This document shows positions 4,563-20,779 of a DNA stretch of 38,513 bases, one piece after another. Where the stretch lies: NCBI GenBank assembly GCA_944327135.1, contig CALVGQ010000074.1, positions 1-38,513 on the forward strand. Reading direction: 5' to 3'. Every line of letters begins with the position of its first letter. Position 1 is the stretch's first letter. Source of the DNA: an uncultured Erysipelotrichaceae bacterium (GTDB taxonomy: Bacteria; Bacillota_I; Bacilli_A; Erysipelotrichales; Erysipelotrichaceae). Below the pieces are notes generated by a model that saw only the letters and a list, made by a program, of their open reading frames with translations, made no database searches and was not told the origin of the DNA. The translations under genes and the position numbers were made by a program.

Positions 4563-4572
4563 ATTTCAAAGT

Positions 4573-4602
4573 AGAGACGCATTCACGCGTCTCTTTTTTT
4601 TT
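4573..4602 (+). terminator. Terminator of the str operon
   Basis: Perfect 8-bp stem AGAGACGC (4573-4580) / GCGTCTCT (4587-4594), 6-nt loop, then nine T residues to 4602. Rho-independent terminator of textbook quality directly after tuf. Confidence 0.95.
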
Positions 4603-4617
4603 ACATTGAAGTTGAGC

Positions 4618-4645
4618 TTGCGGTTAGCGGACAATCAGGTATAAT
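4618..4645 (+). promoter_or_regulatory. Promoter of the MATE gene
   Basis: TATAAT at 4640-4645 with TTGCGG at 4618-4623 and a 16-bp spacer. The inferred start is only about 14 nt before the ATG at 4666, so the Shine-Dalgarno sequence is at the very 5' end of the message. Confidence 0.6.
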
Positions 4646-4665
4646 GACATAGAGGAGTGGGCGCG

Positions 4666-6057: not shown

Positions 6058-6114
6058 ATATTAGAGACCTGAAAGATTTTTTTAACAAAAAGAAGATGAA
6101 GCTCCGTGGGACAA

Positions 6115-6156
6115 TTAAGAAGCAAGAAAAAGCAGACAGCTTCGCAGGCTTCTTAA
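6115..6156. repeat. Perfect 9-bp inverted repeat with nested hairpin
   Basis: TTAAGAAGC (6115-6123) and GCTTCTTAA (6148-6156) are exact reverse complements, and the 24-nt interval holds a second small stem (AAGC 6130-6133 / GCTT 6139-6142). No T-run follows, so it is not an obvious terminator for the MATE gene. It ends 4 bp before the -35 box of the next gene and could be an operator or an RNA 3' end. Confidence 0.4.
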
Positions 6157-6160
6157 AGCC

Positions 6161-6189
6161 TTTACACGGTTTAAGAACTATGATAAAAT
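6161..6189 (+). promoter_or_regulatory. Promoter of the DUF1622 gene
   Basis: TTTACA (6161-6166), 17-bp spacer, TAAAAT (6184-6189). The -10 box ends 26 nt before the ATG at 6215, matching the short-leader pattern of other genes in this block. Confidence 0.55.
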
Positions 6190-6214
6190 AATAAAGTAAG
6201 AATTGAGGATGAGT

Positions 6215-6625
6215 ATGCAGATTTTACAGGAAATTATTTTTCAGGGCGGGGAAATTGCAGTTCTTTTGTTTGAACTGCTGGCGCTGATCATGGTCGTTTT
6301 TGCGGGATGCAAGGGAATCTTGTCTTTGTTTCATCATGATGAAGACAATGTTGCTTTAGCACTTTTGAAAGGATTTTCGATTGGACTTTCTTTTCTTCTG
6401 GGAGCGGAGATTTTAAAGACAATCGTTCTTCAGGAGGTCAGTGAATTGCTGATGGTGGGCGGCGTCATTATTATGCGCGTGGCCTTATCGGTTTTGATTC
6501 ACTGGGAAATGAAACAGGAACAAAAAGAGCGGGAACTGGAAGAACATTCACGTAAGATCGAACTGGCGAACCAGGTGATCGATCATCATCAGAAAAAAAT
6601 GAGTCAACAAGGAGAGGAGGATTAA
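6215..6625 (+). CDS. DUF1622-type small membrane protein
   Basis: 136 residues. Three hydrophobic stretches (roughly residues 9-32, 47-65 and 73-92) are followed by a charged, probably coiled-coil C-terminal tail rich in Glu, Lys and Gln with a His-His-Gln end. The overall plan, including the central LLKGFSIGLSFLLGAEILKTI block, fits the uncharacterised DUF1622 family of inner-membrane proteins. Function is unknown. The start was placed at 6215 because GAGG (6205-6208) is 6 nt away; an ATG at 6209 touches that RBS. The terminator at 6615-6639 overlaps its stop codon, so it looks monocistronic. Confidence 0.7.
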   Translation: MQILQEIIFQGGEIAVLLFELLALIMVVFAGCKGILSLFHHDEDNVALALLKGFSIGLSFLLGAEILKTIVLQEVSELLMVGGVIIMRVALSVLIHWEMKQEQKERELEEHSRKIELANQVIDHHQKKMSQQGEED

Positions 6626-6639
6626 TTCCCCTCCTTTTT
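6615..6639 (+). terminator. Terminator overlapping the DUF1622 stop codon
   Basis: AGGAGG (6615-6620) pairs with CCTCCT (6630-6635) across a 9-nt loop, followed by a T-run to 6639. The stop codon TAA (6623-6625) lies in the loop, so the last codons double as the terminator stem. Confidence 0.6.
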
Positions 6640-6652
6640 CTATGGATTTCTG

Positions 6653-6661
6653 TGATATAAT
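6653..6661 (+). promoter_or_regulatory. Extended -10 promoter of the DUF975/ATP-grasp unit
   Basis: TATAAT at 6656-6661 preceded by TGA (6653-6655), an extended -10 element that can compensate for the lack of a recognisable -35. The box ends 25 nt before the ATG at 6686. Confidence 0.6.
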
Positions 6662-6685
6662 CATAGAAAAGAAGGAGGCTCTAAG

Positions 6686-7384
6686 ATGGATCGCATTCAG
6701 CTAAAAAATCAGGCTAAAAAAAGAATGGGGACTGCGCTGGGATTTTTTCTGATCATGGCTTTCTTAGGGTATCTTGTCAGCCTTTCTTTTCTTCAGTATT
6801 CTGTTGATCTTGAAAGCTGGCAGGTAACGATTCTGCTGGCTCAGATTCCGGTTAAGGTTCTTACTTCAGCCGAAGCGCAATGGGCCCTGCAGAAAATAGG
6901 ACTTTTTGTGATTGTTTATACGATCTTGATTGGTTATCCTTTTGAGTATGGCTTTAAAAACTGCTTTTTAGCGGCATGCCGGGGAGAATTTCATCTGAAC
7001 AGGCTGTTGGATGGATTCAAAGAAGGCTATTCTCGTGTCATGACGGTATTTGTTTTCCGCGATTTATCTATTTTCCTGTGGAGCTGTCTTTTTCTGCTTC
7101 CTGGGTTGATGAAGGCTTATAGCTATCGGTTTGTTCCTTATTTGGCGAAGGAACACCCGGAATTGTCGCCGATGGCGATCCTGCGGCTTTCTTCTTCGAT
7201 GACTGCAGGGCTTCGATGGCAGATCTTTGTTTTGGATCTTTCTTTTTTGGGGTGGAAAATTCTGGAGAATTTGACTTATGGAATGAGCCGATTGTACTCA
7301 GGGCCCTATTACCAGCTGACGGATGCGGGGTTGTATCAGCAAATTCATCAGCAATGGATCTTAGAAAACGGGGAAATGGATTAA
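6686..7384 (+). CDS. DUF975-type integral membrane protein
   Basis: 232 residues with about five hydrophobic segments. The N-terminal amphipathic start (residues 1-14, QLKNQAKKRMG), the central FKNCFLAACRGE segment, the RDLSIFLWSCLFLLPGLMKAYSY helix (quoted here only to mark residues about 129-152) and the C-terminal LDLSFLGWKILENLT match the DUF975 family of Firmicutes membrane proteins. Function is unknown. AGGAGG lies about 8 nt upstream. There is no terminator between it and the ATP-grasp gene 32 nt downstream, so the two are probably co-transcribed, which makes a link to the ligase/esterase genes possible but unproven. Confidence 0.72.
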   Translation: MDRIQLKNQAKKRMGTALGFFLIMAFLGYLVSLSFLQYSVDLESWQVTILLAQIPVKVLTSAEAQWALQKIGLFVIVYTILIGYPFEYGFKNCFLAACRGEFHLNRLLDGFKEGYSRVMTVFVFRDLSIFLWSCLFLLPGLMKAYSYRFVPYLAKEHPELSPMAILRLSSSMTAGLRWQIFVLDLSFLGWKILENLTYGMSRLYSGPYYQLTDAGLYQQIHQQWILENGEMD

Positions 7385-7416
7385 AAAGAAATGCTATTAT
7401 AAAGGGGGATTAGCGC

Positions 7417-8610
7417 ATGAATTTTATTTTTTTGTCACCGAACTTTCCAGAAAACTATTGGAATTTTTGCCGTGGTCTTAAAAACAATGGCATTCGAACA
7501 CTTGGAATCGGAGATGCCGCTTATGACGAGCTTCGTCCGGAGCTAAAAGAAGCGTTGGATGAGTACTATCAGGTGGGCAGCCTGGAAAATTATGATGAAG
7601 TGTATCGTGGGTGTGCGTTCTTTGCTTACAAATACGGAAAGATCGACTGGCTGGAGTCCAACAATGAATACTGGTTGGAGCGGGATGCCCAGCTGCGCGA
7701 AGATTTTAATGTGCGGACCGGAGTGCATCCGCAGCAGATTCGCACGATTCGCTATAAAAGCGGTATGAAAGCATTTTACGAAAAAGCCGGAGTGAAAACC
7801 GCCCGCTATCATTTGACGTCCACTTTCGAGGAAGGAAAAAAATTTATTGAGCAGGTGGGCTATCCAGTAGTGGTAAAACCGGATAATGGCATGGGAGCGG
7901 CAAAAACCTATAAGATCAACAACGAACAGGAGCTCACACAGTTTTATTCGATTCAGCACGAAACCCAGATGATCATGGAGGAGTTCATTACCGGGCTGTT
8001 GGTTTCCTATGACGGCATTGCCAATCGTGAGAAGCAGATCGTTTATGAGACCAGCCATGTATTTCCAACTCCGATCATGGATATTGTCAATGATCAGCGG
8101 GATGTCTACTTTTATTCATTGAAAGAAGTGCCCGAGGATCTTCGCCAGATCGGACGGCGTGTCGTAGAGGCCTTTGATACCAATAGCCGGTTCTTTCATT
8201 GCGAATATTTTCGCCTGACCCAGGCAAAGGAGGGCTTAGGGGAAGTGGGCGATATTGTGGGCCTTGAGGTCAATATGCGTCCGCCAGGAGGCAATACTCC
8301 AGATATGATGAATTATGCTCGGAATATCAATGTTTATCAGATTTGGGCCAACATGGTCGCTTATAATGACGGCTATTATGATTTTTCAACGCCAAGTACG
8401 TTTTGTGTATATGCATCCCGTCGTGATGAGCATCAGTACCGCACGCCTTTGAATGAGGTTGCGGATCGATATCAGGCTCACTTGGTAATGAATCAGCGGG
8501 TTCCGCAGGCGCTTTCTTTGGCGATGGGCAACAGCATGCTGGTGGCACGCTTTGACAGCATGGAAGAGGCAGAACGTTTTATTTCAGATGTGGTGGAAGA
8601 TCATCGCTAG
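7417..8610 (+). CDS. ATP-grasp carboxylate ligase, uncharacterised
   Basis: 397 residues. The N-terminal part (1-110) looks like a Rossmann-type pre-ATP-grasp domain starting MNFIFLSPNFPENYW. The ATP-grasp core is marked by YPVVVKPDNGMGA with Lys154, the MEEF segment near residues 187-190, HCEYF with Glu263 and GLEVNMRPPGG with Glu284 and Asn286, the usual nucleotide and Mg2+ ligands. Such enzymes activate a carboxylate as acyl phosphate and join it to an amine, thiol or other nucleophile. The substrate is not predictable. AAAGGGGG at 7401-7408 precedes the ATG. The next gene starts 8 nt after its stop, indicating tight coupling with the esterase. Database products for this type are often vague (carbamoyl-phosphate-synthase-like or biotin-carboxylase-like); I would not assign either role. 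Confidence 0.75.
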   Translation: MNFIFLSPNFPENYWNFCRGLKNNGIRTLGIGDAAYDELRPELKEALDEYYQVGSLENYDEVYRGCAFFAYKYGKIDWLESNNEYWLERDAQLREDFNVRTGVHPQQIRTIRYKSGMKAFYEKAGVKTARYHLTSTFEEGKKFIEQVGYPVVVKPDNGMGAAKTYKINNEQELTQFYSIQHETQMIMEEFITGLLVSYDGIANREKQIVYETSHVFPTPIMDIVNDQRDVYFYSLKEVPEDLRQIGRRVVEAFDTNSRFFHCEYFRLTQAKEGLGEVGDIVGLEVNMRPPGGNTPDMMNYARNINVYQIWANMVAYNDGYYDFSTPSTFCVYASRRDEHQYRTPLNEVADRYQAHLVMNQRVPQALSLAMGNSMLVARFDSMEEAERFISDVVEDHR

Positions 8611-8618
8611 GAGAAATC

Positions 8619-9374
8619 ATGAATATTCGCTATTATAAAGAATACAGCTATGAACTGGGACGTGAAATGGAGTTCAAGGTTTTTGGCCATGCCGGAAAAC
8701 CATGCTTGGTATTTCCGGCGCAGAATGGCCGGTTTTATGATTTTGAAAATTTTAAGATGGTGGATTCGGTGCATCAGGAACTGGAAGAAGGACGTCTTCA
8801 GCTTTTTTGTGTGGATACGGTCGATCCGGAGACCTGGAGCAGTGATGCCGATCAGTCTTGGCGTATTGGGATCTATGAAGCGTATGTGCGATACATTGTT
8901 CATGAGCTGATGGGAAGAATTTATCAAATCCATAATGAAACTGCGCAGGAAGACTATCATGGGAAAGTATTGACAACAGGGTGCAGCATGGGAGCGACCC
9001 ATGCCTTGAATTTTTTTCTGCGTTTTCCAGATCTTTTTGATGGTGTGATTGCCTTGAGCGGCGTTTATCATGCTGGTTATTTCTTTCCCAATTATACAGA
9101 TGGCCGGATCTATGAAAATTCATCTTTGGATACTTTGCAAAACATTCCTTGGGATCATCCGTATCTGGAAAAATATCGCCGCAGTCAGATCATTGTCTGC
9201 GTGGGTCAAGGACGCTGGGAAGCGGAATGTCTGGAAGACACGCGCTTGCTTCAGCAGCAGCTGGAACGGCTGCAGGTACCTGCTTGGATTGATTATTGGG
9301 GATGGGATTGTGATCATGACTGGCCTTGGTGGCGCAAGCAATTTCCGTATTTTATCCGATTTGTCATCGGTTAG
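8619..9374 (+). CDS. Alpha/beta-hydrolase fold esterase (first of pair)
   Basis: 251 residues, cytoplasmic (no signal peptide). GCSMGA places the nucleophile at Ser123, and His233 in the DCDHDWPWW segment is the likely catalytic His; the acid is less clear. The family is the putative-esterase (esterase D-like) group of alpha/beta hydrolases. It starts 8 nt after the ATP-grasp gene with AGGAG inside the upstream stop region, and its stop is 11 nt before the next esterase, so the three genes form one unit. The aromatic-rich C-terminus (several Trp around residues 222-238) suggests a bulky or aromatic acyl group, but that is inference. Confidence 0.75.
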   Translation: MNIRYYKEYSYELGREMEFKVFGHAGKPCLVFPAQNGRFYDFENFKMVDSVHQELEEGRLQLFCVDTVDPETWSSDADQSWRIGIYEAYVRYIVHELMGRIYQIHNETAQEDYHGKVLTTGCSMGATHALNFFLRFPDLFDGVIALSGVYHAGYFFPNYTDGRIYENSSLDTLQNIPWDHPYLEKYRRSQIIVCVGQGRWEAECLEDTRLLQQQLERLQVPAWIDYWGWDCDHDWPWWRKQFPYFIRFVIG

Positions 9375-9385
9375 AAAGAGGCACT

Positions 9386-10153
9386 ATGGTTATTAAAGAA
9401 ACAATACGAATGTCGATTTATGACAACACCGAGCGAATGCTGCATATCTATGTTCCGGATCATCTGGAAAAGGAACAGCGCTGTGGGGTGCTGTATATGT
9501 TTGACGGACACAATTTGTTTTATGATGAAGATGCGACTTATGGAAAATCATGGGGACTTCGAGAATATCTGGATCGAACCGGCCTGCCGCTGATCGTGGT
9601 GGGACTGGAGTGCAATCACGAGGGCAATATGCGGCTTTGTGAATTTAGCCCTTATGATTTTCAGGATCGTCATTGGGGTACGGTCAAGGCGAGCGGGAAA
9701 CAACTGATCCGCTGGATGATCGAAGAGCTAAAACCGCAAATCGATGCGTTTTTTCCAACCTTGCCGGATCGTGAACATACTGCTTTGGGAGGCAGCTCGA
9801 TGGGGGGGCTGATGGCTTTGTATGGAACGGCGTGCGCCTCGAAAACCTTTTCACGCGGAGCTTGTCTTTCGCCGTTTCATTCGCATATCATGGGACCGCT
9901 GATTCGTGACTTAAAAAGAAAAATTGAGCCTGATACAAGGTTTTATCTGAGCTGGGGAGGCAATGAATGCTTCAGCAAAAAAGCTTTGGCGACTTATACA
10001 GAAGCGAATCTGAAGATCGCTCGTACACTGATGCCACAGGCAGAGGTGTATTTGCATTTATATCCGAATCAGGATCACAGCGAAGCCTCTTGGGAAAAAG
10101 AGACGCCGATCTGGATGAAGGAATTGGGGCTGATTAAAAAGGAGAATTTCTAA
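9386..10153 (+). CDS. Alpha/beta-hydrolase fold esterase (second of pair)
   Basis: 255 residues, no signal peptide. The nucleophile elbow GGSSMGG gives Ser138, and NQDHSEASW gives the catalytic His231, typical of the esterase D / enterochelin-esterase-like family. The N-terminal half carries YVPDHLEKE and VLYMFDGHNLF, the usual oxyanion-side strand of this group. The start at 9386 follows AAGAGG by 4 nt; an in-frame ATG 60 nt upstream lies inside the preceding gene and was rejected. It is the last gene of the unit; the terminator stem begins within its final codons. It is related in fold to its neighbour but clearly not a recent duplicate. Confidence 0.78.
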   Translation: MVIKETIRMSIYDNTERMLHIYVPDHLEKEQRCGVLYMFDGHNLFYDEDATYGKSWGLREYLDRTGLPLIVVGLECNHEGNMRLCEFSPYDFQDRHWGTVKASGKQLIRWMIEELKPQIDAFFPTLPDREHTALGGSSMGGLMALYGTACASKTFSRGACLSPFHSHIMGPLIRDLKRKIEPDTRFYLSWGGNECFSKKALATYTEANLKIARTLMPQAEVYLHLYPNQDHSEASWEKETPIWMKELGLIKKENF

Positions 10154-10182
10154 AGAAAAATTTAGGAATTCTTCTTTTTTTT
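10141..10182 (+). terminator. Terminator of the ATP-grasp/esterase unit
   Basis: Fourteen-bp stem (10141-10154 with 10161-10174, two wobble pairs) enclosing a GAAAAA loop, followed by eight T residues. The stem contains the esterase stop codon (10151-10153), so transcription ends immediately after the gene. Confidence 0.9.
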
Positions 10183-10209
10183 ATGGCGTAAAATTTCAAC
10201 TCCGTTCGT

Positions 10210-10215
10210 TATACT
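10210..10215 (+). promoter_or_regulatory. Possible -10 box for the VTT gene
   Basis: TATACT at 10210-10215 lies 25 nt before the preferred TTG start, the same spacing as in neighbouring genes. No good -35 box is visible, so the call is weak. Confidence 0.4.
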
Positions 10216-10239
10216 GGGGGCAAACAGGGAGGGATGGGG

Positions 10240-10935
10240 TTGAAGATTATCAAAGAGAATTGGAAAGGAATCCTGGGAATCCTATGCTTTCTTTTAGGAC
10301 TTGGAGCGCTTTGCTTGATTTTGGCTGGACCTTTGTCCTTGATGCTGAAGGATCTGGCAGGAATGAAAGATCAGCTGCAGTGTTGGGGATGGCTGAAGAA
10401 AGCAGGACTGGTTGCGTTGATGAACCTGCAAGTTATCTTTGCTTTTCTTCCAGGAGAGCTGATCGAAATCTTAGCAGGCGGAATGTATGGTTCCATTGAG
10501 GGAATGCTGCTTTGTCTGATTGGAGCAGCTTTGGGGTCGGCTTTGATTTATGGCTTTGTTGCTTGCTTTAGAAAGCATTTTTTGAAGTGGATTGGTTCAA
10601 AGAAAAAAATAAAAAGTTTGACATTTTTGCAGTCGAACAAACAATTATCCTTTCTGGTGTTTGTGTTATTTTTTATCCCGGGCACACCCAAAGATCTGAT
10701 GACCTATGTCATGCCTTTGACGTCGATGAAGCTGCCGCAGTTTCTGATAATTAGCAGCTTTGCCCGGATTCCATCGGTTATTACTTCCACATTGGCAGGA
10801 GAGCGTTTGATGCAGCGGGACATAGGGACATCGGCCTTGATTTTTGGGATGACAGCAGCAGTGAGCCTAATTGGGATCTTCTTATACCAAATGATCGTAA
10901 AAAGGATGAATGAAAAGGGGGGTCAGCAGGGATGA
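10240..10935 (+). CDS. VTT (TVP38/TMEM64, DedA-related) membrane protein
   Basis: 231 residues with about six hydrophobic segments. The FFIPGTPKDLMTYV segment near residues 145-158 and the earlier FLPGELIEILAGGMYG segment are the two re-entrant-loop motifs of the VTT/SNARE-associated family. Members of this superfamily have been linked to lipid scrambling or flippase activity and membrane homeostasis. AGGGAGGG ends at 10233, directly against an ATG at 10234; the in-frame TTG at 10240 has a normal 6-nt spacing and is preferred, so the start codon is probably TTG. The last four bases overlap the glycosyltransferase start (ATGA), implying translational coupling and a joint role at the envelope. 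Confidence 0.78.
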   Translation: MKIIKENWKGILGILCFLLGLGALCLILAGPLSLMLKDLAGMKDQLQCWGWLKKAGLVALMNLQVIFAFLPGELIEILAGGMYGSIEGMLLCLIGAALGSALIYGFVACFRKHFLKWIGSKKKIKSLTFLQSNKQLSFLVFVLFFIPGTPKDLMTYVMPLTSMKLPQFLIISSFARIPSVITSTLAGERLMQRDIGTSALIFGMTAAVSLIGIFLYQMIVKRMNEKGGQQG

Positions 10936-11816
10936 AGGAGAAAGTAAGTATTTTAATTTGTGCGTATAATGCGGAAAAAACGCTGTGGTCCAGCGTACGA
11001 AGCGCAGCCATGCAGAATTATCGGCCGATTGAAATCATCGTGATCGATGATGGCTCTAACGATCAAACGGGATTTTTGATTCAGCGTCTTTGCGAACGTT
11101 ATCCGGAAGTCCGAGGCGTCCGTATGGTGCATCAGGGTATTGGCGCAGCCCGTAATCAGGCGTTAAAAGAAGCTTCGGGAGAATGGATCCTGTTTTTGGA
11201 CAGCGATGATCAGATGGCTTTAGGGGCGGTGGATACCATGGTATCCCAGGCACATCAGGCTCAGGTCGATCTGGTTGTAGGAGCGCATGAGGTTCGTTAT
11301 CACGGATTGCATTGGAAAGTTGGGGTTCATCATCTGACGCTGGCGCATGATAATCAGCTTCTTGAATTGCTGTTGAAAGACCGTCAGGTCAAGAATTACA
11401 GCTGGGGAAAACTGATGCGGCGCAGCTTGCTAGAGGGAATTATTTTTCCGAAGGGAAAATGCTTTGAAGATATCATGATCATGGGAAATCTGTTTTTGCG
11501 GGCAAAATCGGCTCTTATCCTTCCAGAGATCGTTTATTATTATACGGTTGGAGAAACCGGCAGCATCTCCTGTGGTCTAAGACCTGCAGTGCTGCTTGAC
11601 ATGCTGGAGGCGGCACGGTATCAAGGACAAAGCATCGCCAGAGCAAGGCCTTCTTTACAAAAGGCCTGTCAGCGGATGTGGCGAAGGAATTGCTGGCTGG
11701 CTTGGGGAAGCTTGCTGATCCATCGTGAATGGAATAGCCCGCTGGCTAGAACAATTCTTCAGGAAATTCGTACCCCGATGTTTAAGAGGGCAGTAACGGA
11801 TCCCATCCATCTTTAG
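10932..11816 (+). CDS. Family 2 glycosyltransferase
   Basis: 294-residue GT-A fold enzyme, cytoplasmic, no membrane segment evident. VSILICAYNAEKTL at the N-terminus, Asp39-Asp40-Gly at the end of the second strand and the DxD-type metal site Asp90-Ser-Asp92 are clear. An FEDIMIMGNLF block near residue 178 supplies the ED that usually acts near the catalytic base. These enzymes transfer a sugar from a nucleotide donor; donor and acceptor are unknown. The start overlaps the VTT-gene stop by 4 bp. Together they may build or move an envelope glycolipid or glycopolymer, which is inference. No clear terminator follows before the response regulator. Confidence 0.82.
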   Translation: MKEKVSILICAYNAEKTLWSSVRSAAMQNYRPIEIIVIDDGSNDQTGFLIQRLCERYPEVRGVRMVHQGIGAARNQALKEASGEWILFLDSDDQMALGAVDTMVSQAHQAQVDLVVGAHEVRYHGLHWKVGVHHLTLAHDNQLLELLLKDRQVKNYSWGKLMRRSLLEGIIFPKGKCFEDIMIMGNLFLRAKSALILPEIVYYYTVGETGSISCGLRPAVLLDMLEAARYQGQSIARARPSLQKACQRMWRRNCWLAWGSLLIHREWNSPLARTILQEIRTPMFKRAVTDPIHL

Positions 11817-11860
11817 AAAATCTTTTGAAAAGAAACATGGGAATCTGAGATCATCCCGCT

Positions 11861-11866
11861 TATAAT
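11861..11866 (+). promoter_or_regulatory. -10 box of the two-component operon
   Basis: Perfect TATAAT at 11861-11866, 25 nt before the ATG at 11891. The -35 region is not recognisable, suggesting activator dependence, possibly by the response regulator itself. Confidence 0.5.
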
Positions 11867-11890
11867 GGAAGAGTAAAGGGGTTGGATAAC

Positions 11891-12598
11891 ATGGAACAAT
11901 ATAACATCTTGGTGGTTGAAGATGAAGTGGAGATTGCCAAAGCGATTGAAATTTATTTAAAAAGTCAGGGCTATTATGTCTTTGTGGCTCATCATGGAAA
12001 GGAAGGCCTGGAAATGATCGAGAAAGAAAAGATTCATCTGGCAATTGTGGATATCATGATGCCGGTCATGGATGGCATTCAAATGACGATGAAGGTTCGT
12101 GAAAAGTATGATTTCCCGATTCTTTTTCTGTCGGCTAAATCTGAGGATCTTGACAAGATTACCGGCTTGAATATCGGGGCTGATGATTATATTACGAAGC
12201 CGTTTGTTCCGATGGAGCTGTTAGCGCGGGTGGCTTCTCAGCTGCGGCGTTATTCGAAATACCTGGCAATGCTGCAGGGACAGCTGCGGACGTTTAATGG
12301 GTACACCGTAGGCGGACTAGAACTGAATCTGGATTCGCGGGAGGTGACGGTGGATGGAAAGCCGATCAAGGTTACGCCGATCGAGTTTAAAATTTTGGAA
12401 TTGCTGATGGAAAATGCCGGGATTGTTTTTTCGGCAGAACAGATTTATGAAAGCGTCTGGAAAGAAGAGGCCATCAGTACTGAAACAGTGATGGTCCATA
12501 TCCGTAATCTACGGGAAAAAATGGAGATCGATCCCAAAAATCCACGCTATATCAAAGTTGTTTGGGGCGTTGGATATAAAATTGATAAACAAGGATAA
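11891..12598 (+). CDS. OmpR/PhoB-family response regulator
   Basis: 235 residues. The receiver domain has the acidic pocket Glu10-Asp11, phospho-acceptor Asp54 in VDIMMPVMDG, switch Ser81 and Lys103 in the KPF motif. A winged-helix DNA-binding domain (residues about 135-234) carries the ETVMVHIRNLREK recognition helix and the VVWGVGYKI wing. AAAGGGG (11875-11881) fits the ATG at 11891; a TTG at 11882 abuts the RBS. It is 11 nt upstream of the kinase and must be its partner. Targets are unknown; the adjacent envelope genes are reasonable candidates. Confidence 0.92.
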   Translation: MEQYNILVVEDEVEIAKAIEIYLKSQGYYVFVAHHGKEGLEMIEKEKIHLAIVDIMMPVMDGIQMTMKVREKYDFPILFLSAKSEDLDKITGLNIGADDYITKPFVPMELLARVASQLRRYSKYLAMLQGQLRTFNGYTVGGLELNLDSREVTVDGKPIKVTPIEFKILELLMENAGIVFSAEQIYESVWKEEAISTETVMVHIRNLREKMEIDPKNPRYIKVVWGVGYKIDKQG

Positions 12599-12609
12599 GG
12601 AGGGGCTTC

Positions 12610-14829
12610 ATGCCTAAAAAAAGAATTGCGGCACTGGCTGCAGCACTTATTGTTCTGCTTAGTGCCACAGGCATGTTTAACTGTTACGATAAGCTGGAAA
12701 CGATTGCGCATCAGGAGAATGGAACCAACGCTTCTTCCTATGCGATCCTTTATTTATATAATGAGGCTAATTTGGAAACGACGGTCTATGCCTTGAAAAA
12801 TCGGCTTCAGAATAGTGAGAACCTTTCTGCATCAGAAAGTCTGTTGATGATTTCTGGCAGCGAGGAGTTTAAAAACATAGCTCAGCAGGTATTCGATGAT
12901 GAATATTTCTGGCGATGGAACGAGCATGTTAATGAAGATGTCAACCTGCATTACTATGCTTTGGATCACGAATCACAAAGAGCTTTGTGGAATGATGAGA
13001 GTTTGAAAAATCTGAACTTTGATGAGCTGAATGGATATCAGTTCGCAATAAGAGTGACGTTTGATGCTGTTGGCAGCGTGGCGGTTGATTGCCGGCCGGA
13101 AAGCAGTTATGATTGGCAATCATTGTTTGATGATAGTACAAAAGCGCGGATCGAATCGTATATTTTCCAAGACAGCAAGGTTCAATGGAAAGAACTGCAG
13201 AATCAAAGCAGTTCTTACGCGCAGGATTCAGAAGCAGAGAAGAACGCAATTGAGCTTAAGCCGATTACCAACATGACGTTTATATTTGCGATTCCAGCCA
13301 AGCTGCAGAAGGCGGATGCCTTGTACTGGAACAGCAACTGGATGCTGGAAAATTCGTATCAAACCAATGCGCTGGTGTTTGCCTTGGCTTTTGGTGTGCT
13401 GGTATTTGTGATCTCTTTGTTTTTTCCGATTCGGGTAGTTCGGGAGTGGAATTGGTTTCGTTCCTGTTCTAAAATTAAGTTTGAGTTTTTGCTGATCGGC
13501 TTGTCATTGGCATTCAGTTTGCTTGCAGCGGCCGGGATTTCCCTGGTCATGGTGACCCAGGAAGGGATCCTGGCACAGGGAATCGATCATTTTCAGCTAA
13601 CGGACTATGTGGGAATATTGATTTTGGTGATCAATATGACGGTCTGGATCAGTTATTTTTCCCTGATTTTGTTTTGTGGGATGATGTTTCGGCATATACT
13701 GAACAAAGGTCTGTTTCATTATTTATTGGAAGATACCTGTCTGGCTTGGATCATTCAGCATCTGGCTGCAGCAGGGCGCGGGATGGGACGCCTTTTGAAT
13801 CGCATCTTTAGCTATGATTTTAAGGATCCGATCCATCAGATTCTTTTGAAGCTGGTTTTTGTGAATTTCTTAGTAGTTTGCGGACTTTGCTGCTTCTTTG
13901 TTTTTGGCTGGCTGCTGGCCATTTTATATTCGCTGCTGCTGTTTTTCTGGCTGCATAAAAAGCTTGGAAAAATTCAGAATGATTATCAGATTCTGCTGCA
14001 TGCTGCGCATCAGATTTCCAACGGAAATTTCAATGTGACCATCGATCAGGAAGTAGAAAGCTTCGGTTCTTTACGGGATGCTTTTGCGGAATTGAAAACA
14101 GGGTTTGAAAAAGCGGTCAATGAAGAAGTGAAAAGTCAGCGGCTGAAGACGGAGTTGATCTCCAATGTTTCTCATGATTTGAAAACTCCGCTGACTTCCA
14201 TTATTACGTATGTAGATTTATTGAAAAAAAAGGGTGTTTCTGAAGAGGATCGTAATCATTATCTTGCGACGATCGATCGCAATGCTCAGCGACTGAAAAA
14301 TCTGATTTCGGATCTGTTTGAGATTTCCAAAGCCAACAGCGGCAATGTCAGTCTGCATTTGGTGGATGTGGAGCTGATTAGCCTGATTCGCCAGGTGGAA
14401 CTGGAATGTCAGGAAAAAATAGAAGATGCTCATCTGGAATTTAGAATGAATGCTTCGAGTGAAAAGGTGATTTTACAGTTGGACAGCTTGAAAGCTTATC
14501 GGATCTTTGAAAACCTGATCATTAATATCTGTAAATATGCGATGCCGTATACTCGAGTCTATGTGGAAATCACGGAAAAAGAAAAAATTGTGCAGATCGT
14601 GTTTAAAAATATTTCTGCAGAGGAGATCGCAGTAGATCCTTCAGAAATTACGGAGCGATTTGTTCAGGGAGACCGCTCGCGTAATACAGAAGGATCCGGA
14701 CTTGGGCTGGCCATCGTAAAAAGTTTTACGCAGCTTCATCAGGGCAGCTTCCATGTGGAAGTGGATGGCGATCTGTTTAAAGCGATACTAGTGTTTCCAC
14801 GGTGTTTGGTTCAGAAAGACAAGGATTAA
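12610..14829 (+). CDS. Large multi-pass sensor histidine kinase
   Basis: 739 residues. A signal-anchor helix (about 5-22) is followed by a sensor region of some 230 residues outside the membrane, then hydrophobic segments near 252-275, 292-314, 332-357 and 413-447, a HAMP-like/coiled linker, the phospho-acceptor helix SNVSHDLKTPL with His522, and an ATPase domain with N box Asn635/Asn639/Lys642 and GSGLGL near 695-700. The DxGxG (G1) box is not recognisable; KNIS in its place is familiar in VanS-like Firmicutes kinases, so activity is expected. The external domain has no family I can name. It follows TAAGGAGGGG and is co-transcribed with the regulator. Confidence 0.9.
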   Translation: MPKKRIAALAAALIVLLSATGMFNCYDKLETIAHQENGTNASSYAILYLYNEANLETTVYALKNRLQNSENLSASESLLMISGSEEFKNIAQQVFDDEYFWRWNEHVNEDVNLHYYALDHESQRALWNDESLKNLNFDELNGYQFAIRVTFDAVGSVAVDCRPESSYDWQSLFDDSTKARIESYIFQDSKVQWKELQNQSSSYAQDSEAEKNAIELKPITNMTFIFAIPAKLQKADALYWNSNWMLENSYQTNALVFALAFGVLVFVISLFFPIRVVREWNWFRSCSKIKFEFLLIGLSLAFSLLAAAGISLVMVTQEGILAQGIDHFQLTDYVGILILVINMTVWISYFSLILFCGMMFRHILNKGLFHYLLEDTCLAWIIQHLAAAGRGMGRLLNRIFSYDFKDPIHQILLKLVFVNFLVVCGLCCFFVFGWLLAILYSLLLFFWLHKKLGKIQNDYQILLHAAHQISNGNFNVTIDQEVESFGSLRDAFAELKTGFEKAVNEEVKSQRLKTELISNVSHDLKTPLTSIITYVDLLKKKGVSEEDRNHYLATIDRNAQRLKNLISDLFEISKANSGNVSLHLVDVELISLIRQVELECQEKIEDAHLEFRMNASSEKVILQLDSLKAYRIFENLIINICKYAMPYTRVYVEITEKEKIVQIVFKNISAEEIAVDPSEITERFVQGDRSRNTEGSGLGLAIVKSFTQLHQGSFHVEVDGDLFKAILVFPRCLVQKDKD

Positions 14830-14856
14830 AAAAAGCAGGGTGATCTGCTTTTTTTT
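14828..14856 (+). terminator. Terminator of the two-component operon
   Basis: GCAG (14835-14838) / CTGC (14845-14848) core extended by A-T pairs on both sides (A-run 14828-14834, T-run 14849-14856). It starts at the kinase stop codon. Confidence 0.8.
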
Positions 14857-14864
14857 GGTTTAAT

Positions 14865-14909
14865 ACTTGATTAAGTCAAGAAAAAGGAATAAACTTGACT
14901 TAGTCAAGT
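14865..14909 (+). promoter_or_regulatory. bilQ promoter with two MarR-type operators
   Basis: Two near-identical 17-bp palindromes flank the promoter: ACTTGATTAAGTCAAGA (14865-14881) and ACTTGACTTAGTCAAGT (14893-14909). The second is a perfect inverted repeat around one central base, and the copies are offset by 28 bp. A -35 TTGATT (14867-14872) sits in operator 1, and a -10 TAAACT (14890-14895) after a 17-bp spacer runs into operator 2. Binding at either site would block RNA polymerase. This is the layout of MarR autorepression; the ligand is inferred, not seen. Confidence 0.82.
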
Positions 14910-14924
14910 AAAGGAGGAACATAA

Positions 14925-15350
14925 ATGGAAAAAACAATATCCTATTATGCTACTGTTCTTTATAAAGAATTTAATGCCTATACTGCACGGCGGCTGCAAA
15001 AATGGGGATTGAATTTTGGATCGGTCTTTTTTGTGATTTATGTAGGGAAGCATCCCGGATGTACTCCTGCTGAGCTGACAGCGGCCCTGCATCTGGATTG
15101 GGGGTATTCCCAGCGCAGCGTGACCCGGCTGATTGAAAATGGTTTGCTGGAGAAGGTCCGTTCGATGAAGGATGGACGTTCTTCTCATTTGAATCTAACT
15201 GAGAAAGGACAGCAGGCTTTTTTGGAAAGTCATCAGGTTTTTCGGGATTGGGACCAGGAAAAACTGGGGAGCTTGAGCGCGAAGGAGAAAACACAGCTGC
15301 AGCAGCTGCTGCAGAAAGTCGTTGAAAGAAAGGGAGACGTCAATGTTTGA
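14925..15350 (+). CDS. bilQ: MarR-family regulator of the bilirubin reductase operon
   Basis: 141 residues, a winged-helix MarR protein: dimerisation helix at the N-terminus, HPGCTPAELTAALHLDWGYSQ as the helix-turn-helix (about 45-66), and the wing with KDGRSSHLNLTEKG (about 85-98). AAGGAGG ends 7 nt before the ATG. Its own promoter carries two palindromic operators. The stop codon lies 8 nt inside the bilR reading frame, so the two genes are translationally coupled. In the published bilirubin reductase operon a MarR-type gene named bilQ accompanies bilR and bilS; the symbol is assigned from that context. Induction by bilirubin or another tetrapyrrole is plausible but unshown. Confidence 0.8.
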   Translation: MEKTISYYATVLYKEFNAYTARRLQKWGLNFGSVFFVIYVGKHPGCTPAELTAALHLDWGYSQRSVTRLIENGLLEKVRSMKDGRSSHLNLTEKGQQAFLESHQVFRDWDQEKLGSLSAKEKTQLQQLLQKVVERKGDVNV

Positions 15351-16455
15351 GACAATGGGAAGTCCGATTCAGTTAGGCACCGTTACTTTAAAAAACCGGA
15401 TCATTTTTGCGCCGACGACCTTTGGAATGCGTTTGGAAGAACTTCAGGAAGAAATCCGGCGGATCGCGCAAGGAGGCTGCGCAATGATCATTCTGGGTGA
15501 TGTTCCGGTTTTGAAAAGTCGATTTGGCTGGTCTTTGGATACGACTAAGGGATTTTCTTATTATCGCTCTTTGGTAGAAATTGCTCATCAAGAGGGCTGT
15601 TTGATTGCCGCTCAGCTGCACCAATCGGATACTTCCTTCAAGGAGGTTCTTCGTTTTATCCCGGATCTGATGATGAAAAAGATGGACCCTAAGGATTTGC
15701 GGAAAAAGATCAATGATGCAGCAGGCCCTTATATTACGGCTTTGCCGACTGCTAAGGTCGAAAAGATTACCCATGCTTTTGCAAAGGCGGCGGTGTTGGC
15801 TGAGCGGGCTGGCTTTGATATGATCCAGGTTCATGGGGATCGCATGTGCGGCAGTTTCAGCTCTTCTTTGTTGAATCGACGCGAAGATCGCTATGGAGGA
15901 AGCGTAAGAAACCGAGCTCGTTTTGCGGTTGAAGCGGTTTCTGCGATTCGTCAGCAGCTGCCTAAAATGCCAATTGATTATAAATTGGCTGTTCGTCAGG
16001 AAAATCCGAATTATGGCCGGGCCGGTGTTTTGGAAGAAGAGCTGTCGGTTTTTGTTCCTTTGCTGGAGCAGGCTGGAGTAACCAGCTTTCATGTTACCTT
16101 AGCTAACCATGGCGCTTTGGAGGATACGATCCCTCCAGCAAATCATCCTTATTTTCATGAGGAAGGATGTTTTCTGAAATATTGTGATCAGGTTCGAAAG
16201 CGGACAGCTTTGCCGATTTGCGGAGTAGGCGGCCTGAGTCATCCGGCGTTTGTTGAAGAACAGCTGGTCTCAGGAAGGATTGATTGTGCGGCCATGAGCC
16301 GACAGCTGATTGCGGATCCAATGTGGGTCAGGAAAGCGCTGAGCAATCAGCCGGAAACGATTCATACTTGCATTCGCTGCAACCAGCGTTGTTTACGGGG
16401 ATTGCAGGAACATCGAGGAGTTCATTGTATTTATGAAGGAGGAAAAGAAAAATGA
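15343..16455 (+). CDS. bilR: Bilirubin reductase, Old Yellow Enzyme family
   Basis: 370-residue TIM-barrel flavin reductase of the OYE/2,4-dienoyl-CoA reductase family, short form lacking the C-terminal FAD/NAD domain. His164-Gly-Asp166-Arg167 occupies the site where most relatives have a Tyr-containing motif; Asp166/Arg167 are the residues reported as conserved and important in BilR, which reduces bilirubin to urobilinogen. SLLNRREDRYGGS follows, as in the family. Cys343, Cys346, Cys350 and Cys362 (C-x2-C-x3-C-x11-C) should hold a 4Fe-4S cluster. The ATG at 15343 follows AAAGGGAGA and gives this numbering; upstream in-frame starts would extend into bilQ. It overlaps bilQ by 8 nt and bilS by 4 nt. 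Activity is inferred from motif and synteny, and another enone substrate remains possible. Confidence 0.85.
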   Translation: MFETMGSPIQLGTVTLKNRIIFAPTTFGMRLEELQEEIRRIAQGGCAMIILGDVPVLKSRFGWSLDTTKGFSYYRSLVEIAHQEGCLIAAQLHQSDTSFKEVLRFIPDLMMKKMDPKDLRKKINDAAGPYITALPTAKVEKITHAFAKAAVLAERAGFDMIQVHGDRMCGSFSSSLLNRREDRYGGSVRNRARFAVEAVSAIRQQLPKMPIDYKLAVRQENPNYGRAGVLEEELSVFVPLLEQAGVTSFHVTLANHGALEDTIPPANHPYFHEEGCFLKYCDQVRKRTALPICGVGGLSHPAFVEEQLVSGRIDCAAMSRQLIADPMWVRKALSNQPETIHTCIRCNQRCLRGLQEHRGVHCIYEGGKEK

Positions 16456-16955
16456 AAACAGCCATTGTCTTCAGCAGTAAAACCGGAAATACCGCGTTGT
16501 TAGCGGAAACCTTGCGGCAGTGCGTGCCTGCATCAGAGTGCTTATATTTTGGAAAACCGTGTGAAGAAGCCCTGCAGGCAGAGCGTTTGCTGATCGGCTT
16601 TTGGACCGATAAAGGTCAATGTGATGAAAAAATAGAGAACTTTTTAAAAAAGCTTCAAAATAAAGAGATCTTTTTGTTTGGAACCGCTGGTTTTGGGCAG
16701 GCTCCAGCTTACTTTGAAAGCATTTTGAAACGAGTTCAGCAATGGATCAGTGACGATAATCGAATCATGGGATCCTTTATGTGTCAGGGAAAGATGCCGC
16801 TTTCCGTTCGTCAACGCTATGTTCAAATGCTGGAATCACCAAATACAGCGATGAATGCCAAGAAAATGATCGAAAACTTTGATCAGGCTTTGAGCCATCC
16901 GGATGACGCAGATCTGAAGCGGCTGGTTCAGACGTTTCAAAATTCAGCTGTCTAA
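16452..16955 (+). CDS. bilS: Flavodoxin-like partner of bilirubin reductase
   Basis: 167 residues, flavodoxin fold. The FMN phosphate loop SSKTGNT is at residues 8-14, and two glycine-containing loops (GFWTDKG near 49-55 and GTAGFGQAP near 76-84) form the rest of the flavin pocket. Its ATG overlaps the bilR stop (ATGA), so equal synthesis of both is likely. In the known bilRS operon the flavodoxin-like BilS accompanies the short BilR, which has no electron-input domain of its own; an electron-transfer role is the natural inference. A bidirectional terminator follows. Confidence 0.83.
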   Translation: MKTAIVFSSKTGNTALLAETLRQCVPASECLYFGKPCEEALQAERLLIGFWTDKGQCDEKIENFLKKLQNKEIFLFGTAGFGQAPAYFESILKRVQQWISDDNRIMGSFMCQGKMPLSVRQRYVQMLESPNTAMNAKKMIENFDQALSHPDDADLKRLVQTFQNSAV

Positions 16956-16964
16956 TCAAAGAAT

Positions 16965-16997
16965 AAAAAGCTCCTTCTCTATGAAAAGGAGCTTTTT
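16965..16997. terminator. Bidirectional terminator between bilS and the VIT gene
   Basis: AAAAAGCTCCTT (16965-16976) and AAGGAGCTTTTT (16986-16997) are exact reverse complements around a 9-nt loop. Because A5 and T5 flank the GC core symmetrically, it can stop transcription from both convergent genes. Confidence 0.9.
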
Positions 16998-17021
16998 GTG
17001 ATTTAAAGAGGGCGTTGCAAT

Positions 17022-17903
17022 TTAAATATCAATGCCTAGCCAGGCTTTTACCAAAAGGCCGACTATAAAGGAAAGGACTGCGACCGAGCCGGAAATGATC
17101 AGCATTTCTAAAAAACGCTGCCGGAAATGGTAATTTTTGGCTACGGAAATATAATAATTGAAAATCAAAATGATCAGCAACACAATCATCAGCAGTACTG
17201 CCAGAGCCGGCAAGTAGGCTTTTGGCGGCAGCAGCAGAAAAGGCAGGCTCATCAAAGCGACCGTGATCAGATACATGATGCCGGTATAGGCGCTGGATTT
17301 GAGTGCTTGCGGATCGTTTTCACTTTTAGCAGAAAGATAGGCAGAGGCGGTCATTGAAAATGTAGCAGAAATACCGGTAATCAAACCCGACAAAGCGACC
17401 AGGCGATTGTTTTGCAAAGCAAAGGTCAGACCGGCCAGGGTTCCGGTCAGCTCGACCAGGGCATCATTCATTCCTAAGACCATCGAGCCGACAAACTGTA
17501 AACGCTCTTCATCCAGCATTGCTAGCAGGGCCTGCTCGTGGCGTTCTTCATCTTCTGAAATTTTCTGTGCCTCAGGAATTTCTGCGATCAAGGCAGCATA
17601 GGCTTTATCGGCTTTGTCCTCGCCGTTTTCCATCATCTTTAAAGCAAACGTATATCCAAATATTTTCGCTAACAGAACGGTCTTGAATACCTTGAATTTT
17701 CGTGGCTTTGGCTGATTGCCGGTATATTGTTCCCATAGCTTGGCGTGGATTTCTTCTTCCTTTGCAATCTGTAGCAGGATCTTGCGGTCTTCTTCGCTTT
17801 TCAGATTAGCGGCGATCTGCTGGTAGATCTGCATTTCATCGATCTCATTTTGCTGCATTCGCTGCAGTGTTTGCAAAGCCTTTTGCGAGCAGGATTTGGT
17901 CAT
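17022..17903 (-). CDS. Ferritin-like/VIT1 fusion, Fe2+ or Mn2+ transporter
   Basis: 293 residues in two parts. Residues 1-130 form a ferritin/rubrerythrin-like helical domain with candidate metal ligands Glu20, Glu23, Glu50/Glu51, His53 and the EDEERHE cluster near 117-123. Residues 136-293 are a VIT1/CCC1 membrane domain with about five helices, opening with the GMNDALVELTGTLAG segment. This matches the erythrin-VIT (MbfA-type) arrangement, which moves iron or manganese across the membrane, often as an iron-detoxifying exporter. The start follows a GGGGG-containing RBS with 7 nt spacing. It is monocistronic between the shared terminator and its own promoter and converges on bilS. Confidence 0.87.
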   Translation of the reverse strand: MTKSCSQKALQTLQRMQQNEIDEMQIYQQIAANLKSEEDRKILLQIAKEEEIHAKLWEQYTGNQPKPRKFKVFKTVLLAKIFGYTFALKMMENGEDKADKAYAALIAEIPEAQKISEDEERHEQALLAMLDEERLQFVGSMVLGMNDALVELTGTLAGLTFALQNNRLVALSGLITGISATFSMTASAYLSAKSENDPQALKSSAYTGIMYLITVALMSLPFLLLPPKAYLPALAVLLMIVLLIILIFNYYISVAKNYHFRQRFLEMLIISGSVAVLSFIVGLLVKAWLGIDI

Positions 17904-17926
17904 GTTGATTCCCCCTTAACGGATTC

Positions 17927-17955
17927 AGTATACCTCTTTTTGTGCTGGAATACAA
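17927..17955 (-). promoter_or_regulatory. Promoter of the VIT1-type gene
   Basis: On the minus strand TTGTAT (17955-17950), 17-bp spacer and TATACT (17932-17927). The -10 box ends 24 nt before the start codon. No clear iron-box palindrome is visible. Confidence 0.65.
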
Positions 17956-17968
17956 AGAAACAAAAGAA

Positions 17969-17988
17969 AAACGGGTCTTTGCCCGTTT
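17969..17988 (-). terminator. Terminator of the alpha/beta hydrolase gene
   Basis: Read on the minus strand, AAACGGG and CCCGTTT form a 7-bp stem around a 6-nt loop, followed by TTCTTTTG. It lies 10 nt after the hydrolase stop and just upstream of the VIT promoter. Confidence 0.65.
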
Positions 17989-17997
17989 CCAATCCGG

Positions 17998-18687
17998 CTA
18001 TAAGCGATTTTCAATCAGCGCCCGTGAAGTTTCAAGAATGATCCCGCGATGCAGCTCATCATCCAAAAGATGATGACCAGCTTCATATAAAAGGATCAAA
18101 GCGCGATGAGAGTGGGATACCTTATGAATGATCCGGCGGGAGCTGGAGCAGGGAATTGTTTCATCCTCCGTTCCATGAAAAATAAGAATCGGACAGCGAA
18201 CCTGACTAAGACTGTCTTTATGATGATCCACAACGGATCGAAAGGCAGCAGTAAAAGAGGCTGGAAGAGCCGGATTTCCTTGGGCGTCTGGAAGCGGATC
18301 ATCACTTTGAAACAGCCGGGTTACGGTACTGGTGACATTGCCTAATGTCAGATAAGAAAAAGCTGGAGCTAAAAGGATCAATTTGCTGACTGGCAAAATA
18401 GAAGCGAGATAAGAGGCGATGACACCACCCATGGAAAAGCCGAATAAAATAACGGTTCTTTGTTCTGAGAGGGCTTGTTCTACCGCATTTTGAGCGCGCT
18501 GGATCCATTGTTCTCCTTGACAGTCACGCTCATCACGGCTATCGAAAAGGATTGGACAGCGAACCTCATATCCAGCATTTTCAAAGTAGGTTTTTAGCGG
18601 AATCAGCTGATCCGTCCGACGTTTGCCGAAACCGTGAATGGCAATAATAATAGGCTTTTTATCCGGTTTTTTAAAAAAATTGAACAT
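17998..18687 (-). CDS. Alpha/beta-hydrolase (carboxylesterase / monoacylglycerol lipase-like)
   Basis: 229 residues, no signal peptide; a Lys-rich start (MFNFFKKPDKK) precedes the first strand PIIIAIHGFGKRR, which holds the oxyanion-hole HG. GFSMGG gives Ser85, HGTEDETIP gives Asp175 and EAGHHLLDD gives His205, a complete catalytic triad. The layout resembles Est30-like carboxylesterases and monoacylglycerol lipases. Substrate unknown. It is transcribed divergently from the LtaS-like gene, with 109 bp between the two start codons, so membrane-lipid turnover linked to polyglycerol-phosphate synthesis is possible but inferred. Confidence 0.82.
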   Translation of the reverse strand: MFNFFKKPDKKPIIIAIHGFGKRRTDQLIPLKTYFENAGYEVRCPILFDSRDERDCQGEQWIQRAQNAVEQALSEQRTVILFGFSMGGVIASYLASILPVSKLILLAPAFSYLTLGNVTSTVTRLFQSDDPLPDAQGNPALPASFTAAFRSVVDHHKDSLSQVRCPILIFHGTEDETIPCSSSRRIIHKVSHSHRALILLYEAGHHLLDDELHRGIILETSRALIENRL

Positions 18688-18709
18688 TGTATCCCTTCTT
18701 CCTACTTCT

Positions 18710-18739
18710 AGTATAATCGAAAGAATGGTTTTAGGTCAT
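18710..18739 (-). promoter_or_regulatory. Promoter of the alpha/beta hydrolase gene
   Basis: Minus-strand TATACT (18715-18710), 18-bp spacer and ATGACC (18739-18734), a four-of-six -35 match. The -10 box ends 23 nt before the start codon. Confidence 0.5.
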
Positions 18740-18767
18740 GTTTTCTTCTTTTTTATTGAATCTTGTT

Positions 18768-18773
18768 TATAAT
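18768..18773 (+). promoter_or_regulatory. -10 box of the LtaS-like gene
   Basis: Perfect TATAAT at 18768-18773, 24 nt before the ATG, with no convincing -35. The inferred start is about 17 nt before the gene. Confidence 0.5.
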
Positions 18774-18796
18774 AATAAAAAAGGGGAGACAAAGGG

Positions 18797-20779
18797 ATGC
18801 GTACGTTGATCGATAAGCATTATCATTTTTTTAGTTATTTTGTATGGACTTTTTTATGCCTTTTTTTTATTGATCTGCTGTTTTATGGATTTGCGTTTAA
18901 GACTCAGGACATGCTGATCTTTGTACGTTTGTTTCTTTTTGATTATGCCGTGGCGCTTTTGGCGGCGCTGCTGCTGGAATGGATCCCCAAGAAAATTGGA
19001 AGCTGTCTTTTGATAGCCGGGCTGCTGTTTTTTGCGGTTTATGCTATTGTTCAGCTAGGATTTCAGCATTTTATGGGAAATTACATGTCCTTTCAGGCCG
19101 CACAGGACGGTTTGGGCAGAGTGGCAAGGAATATCCCGGAATTTATTTTGGCGCTGCGTCCGCTGACTTTGGTTTTGCTTCTTCCTTGGATTGCGACAGC
19201 TATTGCAATAAGCCAAAAGAAAATGCGGATAAAAAAAAGTCATCCTTGTTTTCGATTCAGTGCTGTCATTTTAGGATTGACTGTGCTGATTCATCTGGCC
19301 GGTCTGCTTACGCTTTCTTTGCAGCAGCAGGCTGCTTTGAAGAAGGCTCAACAGCTGTACCGTTCTCCTTACCCGCAGGAATTGGCGCTGAGCGAACTGG
19401 GAGTGAATCGCTTTGCCTGGCGAGATTTGCTTGCTTCTGGTAAAGAAGAGCCGGTCTTAGTTCAGGAAGTGATCAGGACTGAAACGGAAATACCACAAAG
19501 TCTGCCTTTGGAGGAACATCATCGAAGCATAGAAGACAGCCTTTGGAAAGAACAAAGCGAAGCAGAAACCGATCCTTCGATTCAAGAGATCGATGCTTAT
19601 CTGATGAATCGGCCGATTTCAGACTTGAATGAGCTTACAGGCTATTTTGCGGGAAAGAATTTGATTTATATTATGGTGGAAGCGTTTGATTTTATGGCTG
19701 TGGATCCGGCTCTTACCCCGACTTTGTACCAGATGAAAGAGAAGGGCTGGGATTTTACGCATTATTATACGCCAAAATACAGCTGTACGACGGCCGAGAG
19801 TGAAATGATCGCTTTGACTTCCCTAGTGCCTGCCAGCAATGTGTGCACGCCCAATGTGTATCGCAATAATCTGTTTAGTCAGTCGCTGTTTTTCTTATTT
19901 CGGCGGGCAGGCTATACGGCAACTTCTTATCATAACTGGAACGATCAGTTCTATGAACGGAAAACCTATCATCTCAACATGGGATCACAGGCCTTTTATT
20001 CCATTGATGATATGGACTTTCCGATCATTCAGGGCTGGCAAAGTGATGTTGAGCTGATAAAAGAAACGCTGGAACGCTGTGCCGATGAATCTCCCTTCTT
20101 TGCGTTTGTGATCACCTCTTCTACGCATTTTCCTTATGATCAGTCCAGTACTCTTGGCGATCGGTATCTCAGTGCGGTCAACGCGGTTTATCCGCAGGCT
20201 CCGCTGACGATCCAACGCTATCTTTCTAAAGCAATTGAATTGGATAAAGCCATGGAGACCTTGTTGGAAGGGCTGCAGCAGCGCAACCTGCTAGAAGATA
20301 CCGTAATCGCGGTTTTTGCCGATCATCATCCGCTGAAGACCAGCTTGCAGGAAATTGCCAGCCAGAATCAGCCGATCGATCGGATGGCAGGCTTGAATAT
20401 GGATCGGACGCCTTTCTTTATTTATGCAAAGGGAATACCATCAAAGAAAATAGAAAAATTGGGGAGCACTTACGATCTGCTGCCAACCATAGCCAATCTA
20501 TTTGATCTGAATTTTGATCCGCGCTTTTATGTTGGCGTAGATCTGTTTAGCGATCTGCCTTCGCTGGTGTTATTTAATAATGGCGACTGGATCAGCGAAG
20601 AGGGGGTGTATTATGCCAGAAAGAAAAGCTTTGAGGCGTTTGATCCCTCACAAAGCGTGGATGAGGCATGGCTTCAAAATCAAAACAATCGCGTCAGCAA
20701 TTTGTTTTCCATCAGCTTAAAGATTTATCAGACCGATTATTTTAGAAAGAGGGATTTTGAAGTCAGGATGAGGGAATAG
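18797..20779 (+). CDS. LtaS-like polyglycerol-phosphate synthase / phosphoglycerol transferase
   Basis: 660 residues: about five N-terminal membrane helices (up to residue 175), a linker, and an extracellular sulfatase-fold domain from about 285. Candidate metal ligands are Glu295 (MVEAF) and Asp509-His510 (FADHHP); the nucleophile is Thr331 or Thr332 in the SCTTAESE segment, where LtaS has its catalytic Thr; His444 in STHFPY aligns with the substrate-binding His. LtaS polymerises glycerol phosphate from phosphatidylglycerol to make lipoteichoic acid; related enzymes only prime or modify. AAGGGGAG lies upstream of the ATG. It is monocistronic, ending at a strong terminator. Which activity applies is not decided by sequence alone. 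Confidence 0.82.
   Translation: MRTLIDKHYHFFSYFVWTFLCLFFIDLLFYGFAFKTQDMLIFVRLFLFDYAVALLAALLLEWIPKKIGSCLLIAGLLFFAVYAIVQLGFQHFMGNYMSFQAAQDGLGRVARNIPEFILALRPLTLVLLLPWIATAIAISQKKMRIKKSHPCFRFSAVILGLTVLIHLAGLLTLSLQQQAALKKAQQLYRSPYPQELALSELGVNRFAWRDLLASGKEEPVLVQEVIRTETEIPQSLPLEEHHRSIEDSLWKEQSEAETDPSIQEIDAYLMNRPISDLNELTGYFAGKNLIYIMVEAFDFMAVDPALTPTLYQMKEKGWDFTHYYTPKYSCTTAESEMIALTSLVPASNVCTPNVYRNNLFSQSLFFLFRRAGYTATSYHNWNDQFYERKTYHLNMGSQAFYSIDDMDFPIIQGWQSDVELIKETLERCADESPFFAFVITSSTHFPYDQSSTLGDRYLSAVNAVYPQAPLTIQRYLSKAIELDKAMETLLEGLQQRNLLEDTVIAVFADHHPLKTSLQEIASQNQPIDRMAGLNMDRTPFFIYAKGIPSKKIEKLGSTYDLLPTIANLFDLNFDPRFYVGVDLFSDLPSLVLFNNGDWISEEGVYYARKKSFEAFDPSQSVDEAWLQNQNNRVSNLFSISLKIYQTDYFRKRDFEVRMRE

Follow-up and report, generated by a model that had tools for sequence, protein, structure and literature searches.

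The question raised by this locus is whether three overlapping genes of an uncultured Erysipelotrichaceae bacterium form a bilirubin-reducing operon and, if so, which product they would yield and how they would be controlled. The reduction of bilirubin by bacteria in the gut has a bearing on the risk of jaundice, and work is now under way to establish which bacteria perform it and how far they carry it. The window, namely the whole 38,513-nucleotide stretch analysed, comprises the following features around the three genes:

14866..14880, no strand assigned: palindrome 1, CTTGATTAAGTCAAG, exact match; proposed half of a BilQ operator; includes the -35-like TTGATT (14867-14872)
14890..14895, plus strand: -10-like TAAACT, 17 nt after TTGATT; weak, 8/12 to consensus; read from the sequence
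14894..14908, no strand assigned: palindrome 2, CTTGACTTAGTCAAG, 28 bp from palindrome 1; proposed half of a BilQ operator
14925..15350, plus strand: bilQ, MarR-family regulator, 141 aa; NF045593, 169.9 bits (cut-off 125)
15343..16455, plus strand: bilR, short bilirubin reductase, 370 aa; HGDR 164-167; Cys343/346/350/362; NF045592 (bilirubin reductase domain), 531.5 bits (cut-off 425)
16452..16955, plus strand: bilS, flavodoxin-like protein, 167 aa; NF045594, 231 bits (cut-off 155)
16965..16997: terminator-like hairpin 3' of bilS, listed by the scan on the minus strand; plus strand AAAAGGAGCTTTTTGTG read from the sequence

The family assignment relies on the NCBIfam equivalog models, one of which exists for each of BilQ, BilR, and BilS. 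All three proteins exceed their cut-offs, with scores far beyond chance and with BilQ and BilS both adjoining bilR, which bears out the identities proposed in an earlier note on this DNA. Pfam matches comprise (i) MarR in BilQ, (ii) Oxidored_FMN (PF00724) in BilR, and (iii) Flavodoxin_3 (PF12641) in BilS. PF00724 is the only Pfam domain in BilR, as expected for the short form, and the model for the long/insertion form (NF045599), a form marked by flavin and NAD(P)H domains at the C-terminus, gives this 370-residue protein 298.6 bits against a cut-off of 750.

With the ATG at 15343 taken as residue 1, the start methionine shared by most homologues, the active-site HGDR motif begins at His164; the Asp166/Arg167 numbering given earlier is therefore correct and matches that in PMC10769871. 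Near the end of the barrel, Cys343, 346, 350, and 362 form a C-x2-C-x3-C-x11-C pattern. Every HGDR protein examined, whether short or long, displays C-x2-C-x3-C-x10-13-C, a pattern absent from all BilV rows and all other OYE rows examined. The structure model of BilR (pLDDT 87.4, with the last ten residues, Cys362 included, at low confidence) finds its best PDB fold match in 1ps9. This best solved-structure relative has in common with BilR the OYE barrel and the Fe-S cysteine motif, the first three motif cysteines aligning with those of the 1ps9-type protein, but it lacks HGDR and contains its own FAD/NADPH domains, unlike the window enzyme. BilR has been termed an Fe-S flavoenzyme (PMC11574389).

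The placement of BilR within its clade, set as a check in the earlier note, was addressed with a tree of 47 rows, the C. difficile sequence being left out. The window BilR lies inside a 20-row short clade that includes C. symbiosum, with support 100/100, whereas the long HGDR proteins (100/99) and BilV (100/99) form groups apart from it. The short HGDR rows are not one clade, since a distant Tissierellia row falls with the long forms; a tree that keeps all short rows together is not rejected by the AU test (p 0.096). The root region of the tree is unsure because the nearby OYE rows are long-branched, and the position of the window BilR inside the short clade is unaffected by this. The bilQRS operons of C. 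symbiosum and C. difficile, for which bench results on bilRS are available together with a DR-to-AA mutant of R. gnavus BilR (PMC10769871), display the same three genes, HGDR at 164-167 and a short single-domain BilR. Compared with C. symbiosum ATCC 14940, the window BilR is about 59% identical and its host belongs to the Erysipelotrichaceae.

Such divergence leaves room for a different substrate. OYE-family enzymes often accept many substrates, and with a long terminal branch (0.42) and 59-66% identity to its relatives, the window BilR might have drifted to another dienone or tetrapyrrole, as a flavin and Fe-S ene-reductase keeping BilQ and BilS. This is very unlikely, considering that the HGDR motif, the cysteines, and the entire operon are retained and that the protein is nested deep within a clade that includes a tested member.

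A second issue concerns how a Clostridia-like enzyme relates to its host. RpsC of the host is 77-78% identical to that of Holdemania versus 51-59% to Clostridia, and groups with Holdemania with support 100/100; the host is therefore a member of the Erysipelotrichaceae, as the guess of an Erysipelotrichia host had it. The window BilR is 55-56% identical to Holdemania and up to 66% to Clostridia; in the tree it groups with Clostridia, separate from the Holdemania branch (96/94), its exact nearest neighbour not being fixed. This discordance suggests horizontal transfer of the bilQRS operon as the simplest reading of the sequences. Transfer possibly occurred more than once within the family, because three other Erysipelotrichaceae genomes carry a short BilR on different branches. 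A search for traces of mobile elements in the window, covering composition and tRNA genes, disclosed an even GC content and no tRNA gene, so that the transfer, if real, would be old or traceless.

Among the relatives searched, BilR exceeds the cut-off in 32 of 146. One BilR match (L017, 5001-6093) falls into two pieces in different frames, perhaps due to a frameshift or an assembly error. bilQRS is present in Holdemania filiformis and in another Holdemania, and Erysipelotrichales is the order with the highest published bilR prevalence, 15.5% (PMC13252198). The expectation that this host would add a lineage to the bilirubin reducers consequently fails, and the locus is one more species with an already described operon type. 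H. filiformis DSM 12042, of the same family, carries the same operon, but its BilR is about 55% and its BilQ 35% identical to the window proteins, and its BilR branches off elsewhere within the short clade. Other Erysipelotrichales (for example L066, L067, L073) encode a long/insertion BilR, an HGDR reductase of the same superclade. These proteins measure about 640-700 aa, have additional domains at the C-terminus, and are encoded beside a gene for BilV (AHAH motif); the window has neither.

The lack of a BilV hit in the genome bears on the product, on which the literature disagrees. The 2024 study concluded that BilR alone is sufficient to make urobilinogen (PMC10769871), whereas according to a 2026 preprint (PMC13252198) BilR reduces only the methine bridges, yielding divinyl-urobilinogen and also using biliverdin, and the vinyl groups are reduced by BilV, an enzyme with an AHAH motif needed for full urobilinogen. 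A query of the genome, an assembly 96.36% complete in 117 contigs, for BilV (OYE with AHAH) returned nothing convincing, the best match being 34% identical. This is in line with the bilR-short pattern of the preprint, in which only 0.4% of the species with bilR-short also have BilV. Since no BilV was found, the pathway is expected to stop at divinyl-urobilinogen, and full urobilinogen is probably not formed. Of the earlier claim of reduction to urobilinogen, the reductase genes thus stand, whereas the full product calls for qualification. The locus accordingly adds to the known list one species with a likely partial (divinyl) product.

A 766-aa OYE-like protein on another contig (C3, ~19.9-22.3 kb) was considered as BilV and rejected, having no AHAH and only a partial 34% identity. 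Its start is twin-arginine-like and lipoprotein-like (SRRTFLKG...LPGC), and it is perhaps an exported reductase.

The same result raises the possibility that the enzyme naturally acts on biliverdin instead of bilirubin. To find BilR-short but no BilV is the usual situation in bird guts, whose lumen receives biliverdin; according to PMC13252198, bilR-short is the dominant form in avian microbiomes, and biliverdin is reduced by the BilRS of C. difficile. Human gut species, C. symbiosum and Holdemania among them, carry BilR-short too, and biliverdin as the natural substrate appears possible but doubtful.

Taken as a bilQRS operon of the BilR-short type, the locus very probably operates as follows, as far as sequence allows. 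BilQ, a MarR-type protein, would occupy the two palindromes over the -35 and -10 regions and so keep the operon repressed, presumably until a bile pigment releases it. BilS, the flavodoxin, would pass electrons to a predicted [4Fe-4S] cluster in BilR, which would in turn reduce the FMN of BilR. In bilirubin (or biliverdin), the methine bridges at C5 and C15 would then accept hydride from the FMN and a proton from the Asp/Arg pair of HGDR, and without BilV the reaction would end at divinyl-urobilinogen. We infer the activity of BilR, the electron path, and the repression and its inducer from the identities, motifs, and clade described above and from the promoter. Against this reading count the only ~59% identity to the C. 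symbiosum protein, the incomplete assembly, the conflict between the two studies on the product of BilR alone, the weak promoter boxes, and three BilQ loci that have no palindromes (L104-L106, below).

The genes are arranged as the earlier note had read them, a complete bilQ-bilR-bilS set in that order, the open reading frames overlapping by 8 nt (bilQ/bilR) and 4 nt (bilR/bilS). Terminator-like sequence flanks the set on either side, at 14829-14857, 3' of the upstream kinase gene (by sequence reading), and at 16965-16997, so that the operon appears to be its own transcription unit, in line with the single unit read in the earlier note. The downstream hairpin has a 15-pair stem, is T-rich on both strands, and may serve both converging units. 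Upstream of bilQ, the -10-like TAAACT falls under the threshold of the promoter scan of the window and is unlisted there; relatives display TTGACN-17-TATACT-like boxes at the same place.

Over these boxes lie the paired palindromes, which the earlier note had passed over. CTTGAYNNARTCAAG occurs as exact copies in the 2.05 Mb genome only at 14866-14880 and 14894-14908; with one mismatch allowed, further sites are scattered at about the control rate. Palindrome pairs with 27-28 bp spacing are present in 13 of 26 other loci examined, while several relatives have only one copy. The pair precedes bilQ or, in two cases, a bil gene separated from bilQ, (i) bilR alone (L069, genome G024) and (ii) bilS-bilR (L011), the latter contig showing no bilQ. 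The L011 genes (4266-6084, on an Erysipelotrichia contig) stand in an order opposite to that of most loci. When the full 268 kb were resampled ten times under a Markov model, no palindrome pair appeared. The pattern was picked after viewing these promoters and was relaxed from ARTCAAG to RTCAAG between scans; hence the resampling indicates that chance does not explain the pairs, without amounting to an independent test, and better evidence comes from the unplanned cases, L069 and L011.

The palindromes might instead bind a factor other than BilQ or serve as promoter elements only. Their overlap with the -35 and -10 boxes makes some conservation expected, and three loci with BilQ above the cut-off (L104, L105, L106, in G111, G099, and G113) have no palindromes. 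Dyad symmetry and a 27-28 bp spacing, however, are not promoter features; G024 carries bilR (L069) and bilQ-bilS (L099) on separate contigs, each with its own pair; and the MarR loci below the cut-off (L108-L113) lack the pair. This alternative is accordingly unlikely, and a BilQ operator is the best reading of the promoter sequences. The three palindrome-free loci are bilQ-bilS pairs without adjacent bilR, a long bilR residing elsewhere in these genomes.

Two further loci (L102, 2222-2794, G089; L107, 1923-2477, G039) combine BilQ above the cut-off and a palindrome pair with a following protein of ~190 aa that is neither BilR nor BilS. Of the Pfam families, CpeT/CpcT (bilin lyases) alone gives it a plausible match, which stays below the cut-off (E 0.0062 and 0.089). 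The CpeT-like protein adjoins BilQ in two of nine genomes; the other seven (same order) have no BilQ in the stretch examined. This lead yielded only marginal Pfam scores below the cut-off (E 0.002-0.09), no PDB match, and no copy in the window genome, and was set aside.

A broader proposal, that the two CTTGAYNNNRTCAAG palindromes, spaced 28 bp over -35/-10, are a BilQ operator marking a bile-pigment regulon traceable across Bacillota, including the bilR moved from bilQ in G024 and the two genomes with BilQ before a marginal CpeT/CpcT-like protein, is favoured with some reserve. A literature search on bilQ with bilS or bilR, subscription journals being outside its coverage, matched only the 2024 paper and gave no description of a BilQ operator. 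If true, the conserved operator would offer a simple handle on when bil genes switch on, a subject not addressed in the literature covered by that search.

Regarding genomic location, the operon had been placed between two ribosomal-protein operons. This applies loosely, since the str operon (tuf ending at 4562) and the S10 operon (rpsJ beginning near 21042) flank it at a distance; directly beside it are a two-component system (11882-14829) and a gene at 17022-17903 on the opposite strand. Where a relative has tuf and rpsJ on the same contig, the distance between them ranges from ~0.26 kb to >100 kb; the location of bilQRS therefore carries little meaning, and a link to the ribosomal operons was rejected. 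In the window, positions 4657-20779 comprise 16 kb of unrelated genes, including a transporter, sugar and lipid enzymes, the two-component system, bilQRS, and an LTA-synthase-like gene.
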